Shown in pieces: positions 29,524 through 33,505 of a DNA stretch of 63,459 nucleotides. Both the position numbers and the translations under genes were made by a program. This stretch comes from an uncultured bacterium. Its GTDB lineage: Bacteria; Dictyoglomota; Dictyoglomia; Dictyoglomales; Dictyoglomaceae. Below the pieces are notes generated by a model, which made no database searches, was not told where the DNA came from, and saw only the letters and a list, made by a program, of their open reading frames with translations. Location: assembly GCA_938034905.1 (NCBI GenBank), contig CALHLF010000039.1:1-63459 (forward strand), read 5' to 3'. The stretch's first letter is position 1. Every line of letters begins with the position of its first letter.

Positions 29524-29982
29524 ATGTTATGTCAAAATTGTAGAAAAAAACCTGCCGAAGTAATTATAGAGATAAATGATGAAAATAAAAAAGAAAGAAT
29601 TTCTTTGTGTAGAGATTGTTTTAAAGATTATTATCATCAATTTCTGAAAGATACCTTTAAGGAACTATTACATATTGTTGAAGAAAATTTCTTTAAATAT
29701 AATGATTATTGTCCATATTGTGGAAAAAGCTGGAAAGAAATCGAGGAAAGTAAAAAGATAGGATGTATAAATTGCTACAAAACTTTTAAAGAAAGATTAA
29801 ATGGTATCTTAGAGAAAATACATGGAAAGAAGAAATATAGAGGAAAAGCTCCAAAATCATCAGGAGAAAAATTAGAAGAGATTATGAAAAATAGAATATT
29901 ACTTTCAAAGGCTATCGAAGAGGAAAATTATGAAAAAGCTGCAGAGATTAGAGATTATCTAAAAAAGTTAAAAAAAGGCTGA
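29524..29982 (+). CDS. mcsA: McsA-like zinc protein with UVR motif
   Basis: A 152-residue protein with four Cys-x2-Cys pairs (CQNC, CRDC, CPYC, CINC), which should bind two zinc ions, and a C-terminal UVR motif (IEEENYEKAAEIRDYLKKL). In Firmicutes McsA binds and stimulates the protein arginine kinase McsB and, with it, tags proteins for ClpCP. The gene is followed two bases later by the mcsB homologue and then by clpC. No ctsR repressor gene precedes it, and pdxT lies there instead. Confidence 0.88.
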   Translation: MLCQNCRKKPAEVIIEINDENKKERISLCRDCFKDYYHQFLKDTFKELLHIVEENFFKYNDYCPYCGKSWKEIEESKKIGCINCYKTFKERLNGILEKIHGKKKYRGKAPKSSGEKLEEIMKNRILLSKAIEEENYEKAAEIRDYLKKLKKG

Positions 29983-29984
29983 AA

Positions 29985-31025
29985 ATGAATGAAATTTATA
30001 AGTATTTAGGCTGGATAAGAGAGGATCATCAATATAGAGATATTTTTGTGAGAACTAAAATCCGCCTAATGAGAAATGTGGCGGATTTTCCTTTTCCTAA
30101 TCAAATAGATAATATAAAAAGAAAGGTATTTTTAAATAAAGTAGAATGGTTATTTAATAATAGTAATGTCTTTGAGGGATTTGAGTTTATCCCCCTGAAT
30201 AAACAAACTTTAAGGATTAAATACCTCTTTTTGGAAAAGGGAGTTCTTAATGAAGATCCAAAAGAGGATGGCAAGAGCATATTAATTAACAAAAAAGGAG
30301 ACCTCAGTATATTGATTAATGAAAATGATCACTTTCAATTGCAAAAAACTGTTTCAGGTTTTGAATTTGAAAATTCTTTAAATCACCTATATGAATTAGA
30401 AGAGAGGCTCTCAGAATATTTTGAATTTGCCTTTGATTCCAATATAGGTTATTTAACTTCCTCAATAGAAAATATTGGTCTTGGAATAAAAATAACCTTT
30501 TGGGTTCATCTTCCAGGACTATCCCAAGAAGATGAAGTTCTTGATTTAATGAGATCTTTTAAACCTTCAAAAATATATATGAAAGAAGTTTATAAAAATG
30601 AGGATTATTCAGTAGGAAATTTATTTGAAGTTTCTATAGATGAAGGATTTTCTACCCCAAAAAGATTAATTTCCAAGGTAAAAAGAGTTGTAGAAAAGAT
30701 AATTAATCGAGAAAGAGAGGCAAGAAAAATTTTGTTAACAGAAAGAAGGATTATTGTTGAAGATACTGTTTATAAGTCCTTAGGACTTATAAATTATAGT
30801 AAAATTCTTAGCTTTAGAGGAGCAGTGGAATTGTTATATAACTTAAGATTAGGAGCTTCATTAAATATTATATCAATTCCCCTAAAATTAATTGATATTC
30901 TTTCCATTTTTGTCCAGCCAAACCATATTCAATTAAGATATGGAAAGGAATTAAATTCTCCAGAAATGGAAATTTTGAGAGCAAATTTATTGCGTGATGT
31001 TTTCAAAAGTTATAAAATATCATAG
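29985..31025 (+). CDS. mcsB: McsB-like protein, probably a catalytically dead arginine kinase
   Basis: Overall this is a guanido-kinase-fold protein of McsB size (346 residues) in the mcsA-mcsB-clpC context. Compared with active McsB as I remember it, the functional motifs are changed. S-R-I-R-L-A-R-N is T-K-I-R-L-M-R-N; N-E-E-D-H-I-R is N-E-N-D-H-F-Q (catalytic Glu lost); T-S-C-P-T-N-V-G-T-G-L-R is T-S-S-I-E-N-I-G-L-G-I-K (conserved Cys lost). The R-G-I-Y-G-E-G loop is K-E-V-Y-K-N-E, and the C-terminal R-D-x-x-R-A phosphoarginine sensor is M-E-I-L-R-A. The frame is intact and starts cleanly at ATG 29985. It may serve as a scaffold or adaptor rather than an enzyme. Confidence 0.8.
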   Translation: MNEIYKYLGWIREDHQYRDIFVRTKIRLMRNVADFPFPNQIDNIKRKVFLNKVEWLFNNSNVFEGFEFIPLNKQTLRIKYLFLEKGVLNEDPKEDGKSILINKKGDLSILINENDHFQLQKTVSGFEFENSLNHLYELEERLSEYFEFAFDSNIGYLTSSIENIGLGIKITFWVHLPGLSQEDEVLDLMRSFKPSKIYMKEVYKNEDYSVGNLFEVSIDEGFSTPKRLISKVKRVVEKIINREREARKILLTERRIIVEDTVYKSLGLINYSKILSFRGAVELLYNLRLGASLNIISIPLKLIDILSIFVQPNHIQLRYGKELNSPEMEILRANLLRDVFKSYKIS

Positions 31026-31054: not shown

Positions 31055-33505
31055 ATGATGGACAAACTAACACAGAGAGCATATAGGGTATTATTGTTGG
31101 CACAAGAAGAGGCACGACGTTTAAACTATTCCACAGTTGGAACAGAGCATATTCTATTGGGACTAATTCGTGAAGAAGGGGGAGTTGCTGCCCAAGCTCT
31201 TATCAATTTGGGTTTAGATCTTAATTATCTAAGAACAGAAATAGAACGCTTAATTGGACGGGGAGATGGAACCTCTTATGGTGCACTTCCCTTTACTTCC
31301 CGAGCAAAAAAGGTCTTAGAATATGCCTCTGAATCTGCCCAAGAATTAAATCATAATTATATTGGAACAGAACATCTTCTTTTAGGGCTTTTAAAAGAAG
31401 GAGAAGGTGTTGCTGCTCATGTATTAGAAGGTATGGGGGTAAGATTAGAAGATGTAACTGTGGAAATTCTTAAAATCTTAGGAGAACCTATTGAGCCTAA
31501 TAGATTAAAAAATAAGTTCCTTTCTACATCTAGAAAAAAGAGACCAATTACTGCAACTTTAGATGAATTTGGAAGAGATCTTACCCAATTGGCAAGACAA
31601 GGGAAATTAGATCCTATAATTGGCAGAGAAAAAGAATTGGAAAGAATAATACAAATTCTTAGTAGAAGAACAAAAAATAATCCAGTACTTATAGGAGAAC
31701 CAGGAGTTGGAAAAACTGCAATTGTTGAAGGATTAGCCCAAAAAATTATTATGAATGAAGTTCCAGATGTCCTTTTAAATAAAAAAATTATTGCCTTAGA
31801 TATGGGGACAATAATTGCTGGCACAAAATATAGAGGTGAATTTGAAGAAAGAATGCAAAGGATTATTGAAGAAGTAAAGATGTCAAAGGATATTATTCTA
31901 TTTATTGATGAAATCCATACATTAGTAGGGGCAGGAGCTGCAGAGGGAGCAGTTGATGCAGCTAATATTTTAAAACCTTCTCTTGCAAAGGGAGAAATTC
32001 AACTTATTGGAGCTACCACTCCTACAGAGTATAGAAAATACATTGAAAAGGATGGTGCTTTAGAGAGAAGATTTCAGCCTGTCAGAGTGATGGAACCCAC
32101 ATACGATGAAACTATAAAGATCCTTAAGGGATTAAGAGAAAGGTATGAGAACTTCCACCATGTTAGAATTCCTGATGAAACTATAGAGGAAGCTGTTAAG
32201 CTCTCAGTAAGATATATTAATGATCGTTTCCTTCCCGATAAAGCTATTGATATTATTGATGAAGCATCTGCAAGGGTAAGATTAACGAGGCCAAAATCTA
32301 TTGCACACAGCAATTTGGAAAGAGAACTTGAGAGAATAAAAGAGCAAAAAGAGATTGCAATAAGAAATCAAAATTTTGAAAGAGCAGCTCAATTGAGAGA
32401 TGAGGAGAGAAAATTAGAAGAATATATTAGAGGCTTTTTAAATTCCACATCTATTTCAGAAAGGATTGTAACTCCAGAAGATGTAGCCCAAGTGGTATCT
32501 GCGTGGACAGGTATTCCTGTTGCTCAATTGTTAATTGAAGAGAGAGAAAGACTTTTAAGAATGGAAGAGGAACTACATAAAAGAATTATATCTCAAGATG
32601 AAGCAGTAAGAGTAGTGTCAAAGGCAATTAGAAGATCTCGCTCAGGAATTAAAGATCCAAAGAGACCAATTGGAGTATTTCTATTCTTAGGTCCTACTGG
32701 AGTGGGAAAAACAGAATTGGCAAGGGCATTAGCAGAATATCTATTTGGAAATGAGAATGCCCTTATACGTTTTGATATGTCTGAATATATGGAAAAGCAT
32801 AGTGTATCGAGATTAATAGGAGCCCCTCCTGGATATGTAGGATATGAAGAGGGAGGGCAATTGACAGAAAAAGTTCATAGAAGACCTTATTCTGTAATAC
32901 TTTTTGATGAAATTGAAAAGGCTCATACAGATATCTTCAACGTCTTACTACAAATTATGGATGATGGACAATTAACTGATGGCCATGGAAGGAGAGTAGA
33001 TTTTAAGAACACTATTCTAATTATGACTTCTAACTTTGGAGCAGAATACTTTAAACAAGAAACTACTCTTGGCTTTGCATCAAAAGAAGACAAAGAAAAA
33101 TCCTTTGAGAAAATTAAAGATCTTATTCTGAGCGAGATAAAAAAATATTTCCGTCCCGAATTTTTGAACCGATTAGATGAAATTGTATTCTTCCATCCAT
33201 TATCTCGAGATGATTTAAGAAGGATTGTAGAACTTCTACTTAAGCCCATTGCAGGAAGATTAATGGAGAAGAAGATCACCCTTGAAGTAGATGAAGAAGT
33301 TAAGAACTTCTTAGTGGAAAAAGGATATGATCCTTTCTATGGTGCAAGACCATTAAAGAGAACTATTCAAAATTATCTGGAAGATCCTTTAGCAGAGCTA
33401 CTTCTTGAGGGAAGATTTAAGGAGGGAGATATTGTAAGAGCAGAATTAGATAAAGAAAATAATAAAATAGAATTTAGAAATGTATCTTTGGTAGTTAATA
33501 GATGA
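31055..33505 (+). CDS. clpC: ATP-dependent Clp protease ATPase subunit ClpC
   Basis: A two-ring AAA+ unfoldase of 816 residues that feeds ClpP. It has two N-terminal Clp repeats (GTEHILLGLIREEGGVAAQA and GTEHLLLGLLKEGEGVAAHV). The first AAA domain is GEPGVGKTAIVEGLA with LFIDEIHTLVGAG. The middle coiled coil contains a UVR motif (RNQNFERAAQLRDEERKLEE). The second AAA domain is GPTGVGKTELARALAE. The glutamates that bind phosphoarginine in the N-domain of Bacillus ClpC appear to be kept in both repeats. AAGGAGGTG precedes tandem ATGs, and the first is used. Confidence 0.96.
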   Translation: MMDKLTQRAYRVLLLAQEEARRLNYSTVGTEHILLGLIREEGGVAAQALINLGLDLNYLRTEIERLIGRGDGTSYGALPFTSRAKKVLEYASESAQELNHNYIGTEHLLLGLLKEGEGVAAHVLEGMGVRLEDVTVEILKILGEPIEPNRLKNKFLSTSRKKRPITATLDEFGRDLTQLARQGKLDPIIGREKELERIIQILSRRTKNNPVLIGEPGVGKTAIVEGLAQKIIMNEVPDVLLNKKIIALDMGTIIAGTKYRGEFEERMQRIIEEVKMSKDIILFIDEIHTLVGAGAAEGAVDAANILKPSLAKGEIQLIGATTPTEYRKYIEKDGALERRFQPVRVMEPTYDETIKILKGLRERYENFHHVRIPDETIEEAVKLSVRYINDRFLPDKAIDIIDEASARVRLTRPKSIAHSNLERELERIKEQKEIAIRNQNFERAAQLRDEERKLEEYIRGFLNSTSISERIVTPEDVAQVVSAWTGIPVAQLLIEERERLLRMEEELHKRIISQDEAVRVVSKAIRRSRSGIKDPKRPIGVFLFLGPTGVGKTELARALAEYLFGNENALIRFDMSEYMEKHSVSRLIGAPPGYVGYEEGGQLTEKVHRRPYSVILFDEIEKAHTDIFNVLLQIMDDGQLTDGHGRRVDFKNTILIMTSNFGAEYFKQETTLGFASKEDKEKSFEKIKDLILSEIKKYFRPEFLNRLDEIVFFHPLSRDDLRRIVELLLKPIAGRLMEKKITLEVDEEVKNFLVEKGYDPFYGARPLKRTIQNYLEDPLAELLLEGRFKEGDIVRAELDKENNKIEFRNVSLVVNR

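Follow-up and report, generated by a model that had tools for sequence, protein, structure and literature searches.

A degenerate McsB in the mcsA-mcsB-clpC operon of a Dictyoglomota genus, probably kept as a phosphorylation-independent partner of McsA and ClpC

The window, that is, the whole stretch of 63,459 nucleotides analysed here, contains a locus with the gene order pdxS-pdxT-mcsA-mcsB-clpC-radA-disA, in which the names pdxS, radA and disA rest on sequence and gene order. The mcsA gene (29524-29982, + strand) encodes a protein in which the UVR motif and, in each of the two zinc fingers, the CxxC pairs are kept, and ends 2 bases before an open reading frame with an ATG start and 346 amino acids (29985-31025, + strand; hereafter named pseudo-mcsB). 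After a spacing of 29 bases this frame is followed by clpC (31055-33505, + strand), whose product carries the GTEH glutamates (equivalents of E32 and E106) and an N-domain nearly the same as that of the sister genus. The place and length between mcsA and clpC that the earlier note had assigned to this gene are confirmed by the coordinates and by the intact frame.

The product of the pseudo-mcsB gene is a full-length McsB homologue by descent, as indicated by the frame, profile, PDB and structure matches and alignment. It matched PF00217 (guanido-phosphotransferase domain) at 102 bits, the McsB equivalog models with E=2e-71 (NF002194, residues 10-341) and 2e-59, and the McsB structure 6fh1 with E=7e-40. 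The equivalog cut-offs were far from being reached (240.8 vs. 385 bits and 201.4 vs. 500 bits). Scanning contigs with the single protein sequence as query gave no match, and with an alignment as query gave Bacillota relatives only, which served mainly as alignment depth. The PF00217 search revealed one gene per genome in the phylum, and this is the sole one in the source genome (1.84 Mb, 99.6% complete), so there is no second McsB. McsB and CtsR genes are both known in Bacillus subtilis; the B. subtilis control genome was unmatched in the PF00217 and CtsR profile searches, and these controls are uninformative.

An AlphaFold2 model built with 59 sequences, which was used instead of a 7-sequence run (pLDDT 57.5), reached pLDDT 94.7 and pTM 0.91, a confidence aided by the many McsB sequences in that alignment. 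With Foldseek, all the top matches of this model were McsB, the best being 6fh1 and 6tv6 at TM 0.90-0.93, above the animal arginine kinases. Hence the predicted structure matches the McsB fold, dimerisation domain included, while the alignment to the Bacillus and Geobacillus proteins shows the losses in the active site that are described below.

The protein was aligned to the McsB of B. subtilis and Geobacillus stearothermophilus, with the numbering anchored on R337, D338 and R341 (PMC8370763, eLife); the residue roles of Suskiewicz 2019 are given as reported in papers citing that study. In arginine kinases two Glu and a Cys orient the guanidinium group and arginines hold the phosphate (PMC11075012). 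Compared with B. subtilis McsB, the substitutions are R29K, E121N, R125Q, C167S, R176K, R207K, E212N, R337M and D338E, whereas R31, R34, D122, H123 and R341 are unchanged. The altered residues are K25, equivalent to R29 (30057-30059); N114, in the place of the catalytic Glu E121 (30324-30326); Q118, in the place of R125 (30336-30338), which is Q in the three genomes of the genus; S160, in the place of the catalytic Cys C167 (30462-30464); K169, equivalent to R176 (30489-30491); K200 to N205, corresponding to R207 to E212 of the lid loop (30582-30599); and M328 and E329 which, with the retained R332, correspond to R337, D338 and R341 of the phosphoarginine receptor (30966-30980). All of these are on the + strand. 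At the level of motifs, NEEDH has become NENDH, TSC[PI]TN has become TSSIEN, RGxYGE has become KEVYKN and ERDxxRA has become EMEILRA.

In the B. subtilis lysine scan R29K, R31K, R34K, R125K, R176K, R207K and R337K each abolished the kinase, and C167S is the classical kinase-dead McsB used in vivo (PMC7235348). Four of these exact substitutions (R29K, C167S, R176K and R207K) occur in the protein described here and two further essential positions have changed (R125Q and R337M). The catalytic Cys, the two Glu and the phosphate-binding Arg that together characterize a protein arginine kinase are not present as a set in this McsB, nor is the receptor R337-D338-xx-R341, which in the genus reads M/M/I at the first position and E/E/E at the second, with the last Arg retained here. 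The earlier note had listed the catalytic Glu, the Cys region, the RGIYGEG loop and the RDxxRA site as changed. Each change is present and those of the Cys region and the loop stand in full; in the RDxxRA site R337 and D338 are gone but R341 is not, the NENDH motif is not found throughout the genus, and the losses of the essential arginines (R29K, R125Q, R176K and R207K) had been overlooked.

Seven genomes of the phylum were compared, three of this genus (G000, G005 and G006) and four of the sister genus (G001-G004), two of which are single contigs of 1,959,987 and 1,855,560 bases. G000, G005 and G006 each have a degenerate McsB protein, while NEEDH, TSC, RGxYGE and ERDxxRA, with all the catalytic residues, are found in the four sister genomes. 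The losses of R29, R125, C167, R207, R337 and D338 are fixed across the trio, the Cys position reading S, Y and S. The position of the catalytic Glu reads N, D and E, the two relatives having NEDDH and NEEEH, both together with E212, and one of them (G005) retains both catalytic glutamates.

One could ask whether a weak but real arginine kinase persists, with Lys substituting for Arg and Ser for Cys. The conservative nature of R29K, R176K, R207K and C167S and the two glutamates of G005 would fit it, but exactly these conservative changes kill the activity of B. subtilis McsB and, as shown below, the cognate phosphatase is gone, which makes this explanation very improbable. An enzyme of changed chemistry, with the site re-tooled to another nucleotide or acceptor, is improbable as well. 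The new pocket residues common to the three genomes (S27R, R29K, R125Q and T169E) and the presence of R31, R34 and H123 speak for it; however, the Cys, the lid and most of the arginines that bind phosphate are altered, and even among the three genomes the sequences differ in the lid loop and at both glutamate positions, which would not be expected of a new active site. The changes of S27 to Arg (30051-30053) and T169 to Glu (30468-30470), which lie at the old active site in the three genomes, might form a salt bridge plugging the old pocket.

In other bacteria McsB marks damaged proteins for degradation by phosphorylating arginine, and the phosphatase YwlE takes the mark off again; this phosphatase was sought in the same genomes. 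The complete sister genomes have two PF01451 relatives, the source genome a single one. The YwlE signature C[TS]GNTCRSPMAE is present in the four sister genomes, and it is the Thr of C[TS]GNTCR that distinguishes arginine phosphatases. A single change sets the selectivity (PMC5506225). In the sister genomes checked the gene order is prmC-sua5-ywlE-rpiB, followed by glyA where this was read, whereas in the three genomes of this genus it is prmC-sua5-rpiB and sua5 adjoins rpiB. A protein search for YwlE in these three genomes yielded nothing but an ArsC-like gene with CTHNSARS, and the exact CxGNTCR motif, found once in each of the four sisters, did not occur in any of them. This indicates that the cognate phosphatase YwlE has been lost from this genus. 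Taken with the substitutions, it points to an arginine kinase activity that has very likely been lost.

The pseudo-mcsB frame is not a pseudogene, but an intact gene under purifying selection. The three orthologues are intact and full length, and their structural residues are strictly conserved. Pairwise dN/dS for the closest pair of the genus (G000-G006) was 0.19 (NG86) or 0.10 (YN00) at a dS of about 0.8-1.4, and 0.09 and 0.10 for the closest pair of the sister genus, with dS close to saturation in most pairs. The tree groups the trio at 100/100 and joins it to the sister genus in a clade of 100/100 support, the whole lying inside McsB. The stem leading to the trio is long (1.06 vs. 0.13), which suggests fast change at the time of loss and constraint afterwards. 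A decaying gene whose frame stayed open by chance would be in keeping with that long branch and with an identity below that of most neighbouring genes, but the same length in three species, a dN/dS of 0.1-0.2 at this divergence and the kept structural residues make it the most improbable of the explanations considered. The proposal of the earlier note that kinase function was lost while selection maintained a non-enzymatic role is strongly supported by the kinase-dead substitutions, the ywlE deletion and the constrained frame in three species. We regard the maintenance of such a role as very likely.

As to what this role may be, the C-terminal zinc finger of McsA binds, in Staphylococcus aureus, the McsB loop Y147-Y153, just before the catalytic Cys (PMC12467219, review). 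The equivalent loop here is FDSNIGY (residues 150-156; 30432-30452, + strand), in which the Gly-Tyr is retained, as is the Leu-Thr-Ser directly after it, alongside the second zinc finger of McsA. Binding of pseudo-McsB to McsA is likely on the basis of these sequences. Within the phylum the ClpC sequences share 83-94% identity, and the N-domain, both GTEH motifs included, hardly varies. The phosphoarginine pockets of ClpC also stabilise its resting state (PMC12583610), so the pocket glutamates are no proof that phosphoarginine is read; their retention as a sign of phosphoarginine signalling was considered and set aside, since the resting-state role offers another explanation for it.

In B. subtilis the kinase-dead C167S prolonged the half-life of MgsR less than deletion of McsB did (12.3 vs. 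17.7 min), and the authors of that study concluded that McsB has an adaptor function independent of its kinase activity (PMC7235348). On the other hand, the stimulation of ClpC by B. subtilis McsB requires the kinase activity of McsB (PMC5506225), so an adaptor free of kinase activity must act differently. A role of pseudo-McsB as regulator of ClpC or as its adaptor, the function proposed in the earlier note, is plausible, and that it works as an McsA-bound partner of ClpC appears fairly probable from the retained sequences. A protein that regulates rather than adapts, either titrating or positioning McsA or holding ClpC in its resting state, is possible but less likely. B. subtilis McsB and ClpC do interact, and before stress ClpC inhibits McsB (PMC5506225), and both the conserved anchoring sites on the ClpC N-domain and the retained operon order would suit a regulator. 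The sequence alone separates neither from the other. A profile search across the phylum, in which the control matched only in Lactococcus, gave no hit for CtsR, the classic regulated target; this counts against a regulator, and CtsR was dropped as a candidate for the retained target.

Our preferred explanation is that this McsB is a pseudokinase that has probably been kept as a phosphorylation-independent partner of McsA and ClpC. The ancestor would have had an active McsB-YwlE pair for arginine phosphorylation, surviving in the sister genus. The ancestor of this genus would then have lost ywlE by deletion, and its McsB would have shed the arginine- and phosphate-binding residues and the phosphoarginine receptor, after which purifying selection would have held pseudo-McsB within the mcsA-mcsB-clpC operon. 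The scaffold would bind McsA via the retained docking loop and both proteins together might deliver or present substrates to ClpC, or control ClpC, without a phosphoarginine tag.

The state is not unique to this genus, a recurrence of which the earlier note was unaware. Of 193 genomes surveyed, the majority from separate families, 74 had PF00217 and all 74 were read for nine catalytic residues. None was lost in 52, one to four in seven, and five to eight in fifteen, these last comprising this genus and twelve other families. With the losses shared by three genomes, four sister genomes intact and 52 of the 74 complete, neither chance nor assembly error can account for them. The class is defined by the nine catalytic residues, and their depletion is thus a matter of construction, but the retention of other residues is not: R34, N35, H123, G172, P184, E251 and R341 are kept in 93-100% of the degenerate set and, in the docking region, G162 in 87%, Y163 in 67%, L164 in 93% and T165 in 80%, compared with 7% for the catalytic Cys. 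McsA adjoins or is fused to the degenerate McsB in 10 of the 12 families. At L159 (4241-5941, + strand) a single 567-aa frame encodes McsA, with its zinc fingers, and a degenerate McsB as one protein, a fusion that is evidence for a lasting complex of the two. In the tree about five state changes are needed and the AU test rejected a single origin (p=0.004; the long branches call for caution), which suggests that the degeneracy arose more than once.

Outside the Dictyoglomota the YwlE motif was found in 3 of 12 genomes with degenerate McsB vs. 24 of 48 with intact McsB (Fisher p=0.19). A general link between absence of YwlE and degeneracy of McsB is weak there, and in other phyla YwlE does not always accompany McsB. 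Genomes G009, G157 and G131 (L155, L156 and L158) have retained a CxGNTCR phosphatase of the YwlE type despite the degeneracy of their McsB. Three further families were also observed. In f31 (L148 and L153) an McsB-like protein has the catalytic residues and an adjoining Clp ATPase, the RDxxRA receptor is absent and an McsA gene was not found. The guanido-kinase homologues of f5 (L146 and L147) have Glu and Arg, Cys replaced by Ser, and neither McsA nor Clp nearby, and are perhaps arginine kinases of another role. The two genomes of f7 (L209 and L164) have lost four and two catalytic residues and may be at a halfway stage of decay.

One of the twelve, G122, scores near model NF002191, and in its phylum 30 of the 30 fetched McsB proteins (L212-L241) have lost seven or eight of the nine catalytic residues and have an McsA-like gene in the same locus. 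The cut-off of NF002191, named 'protein arginine kinase', is exceeded by 22 of these 30. In the main genus of that phylum (genomes of 1.0-1.3 Mb) the mcsAB pair has tRNA-Glu/Lys on one side and tRNA-Thr on the other. This agrees with the published account of C. trachomatis, in which tRNAs flank mcsAB (PMC10128030), so that the phylum is evidently Chlamydiota. The McsB of Chlamydia has been called a retained or putative arginine kinase (PMC11708050; PMC5177608); to judge from the residues, the name carried by NF002191 is probably an annotation error for these proteins.

The protein thus shares full-length homology, the two-domain fold and the mcsA-mcsB-clpC arrangement with the McsB kinases of B. 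subtilis, G. stearothermophilus and S. aureus (6fh1, 6tv6, 8gqd), but differs from them in the nine substituted residues and in the absence of YwlE. The B. subtilis C167S mutant is likewise kinase-dead and retains part of the adaptor effect in vivo (PMC7235348); here, in contrast, the state is natural, has become fixed throughout a genus, involves far more substitutions and goes together with loss of the cognate phosphatase. The chlamydial McsB (NF002191; CT_675 in C. trachomatis) is apparently also degenerate with mcsA adjacent, although on the tree it is probably a separate loss and its mcsAB sits apart from clpC, flanked by tRNA genes. MecA and other ClpC adaptors belong to a family unrelated to McsB, and the proposed role that may be shared is the passing of substrate to ClpC without phosphorylation.

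In a literature search no report of McsB pseudokinases was found. The adaptor and kinase functions of B. subtilis McsB are hard to separate (PMC5506225). Of the two sister genera, one has the full McsB/YwlE pair and the other neither activity, with McsA, the McsB protein and ClpC in both; evolution has separated the kinase from the protein, and a kinase-independent role of McsB becomes directly testable. It seems somewhat likelier than the contrary that McsB has repeatedly turned into a non-catalytic partner of McsA, evidently also in Chlamydiota, as part of a widespread module that targets substrates to ClpC or regulates it without phosphoarginine. Such recurrence implies that the annotation 'protein arginine kinase' is wrong in many genomes, including members of NF002191 and apparently Chlamydia, for which an McsB-directed phosphoproteome study has been planned (PMC11708050). 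If this is true, the chlamydial 'arginine kinase' would not be one, and the hypotheses in which arginine phosphorylation drives chlamydial development would need revision.
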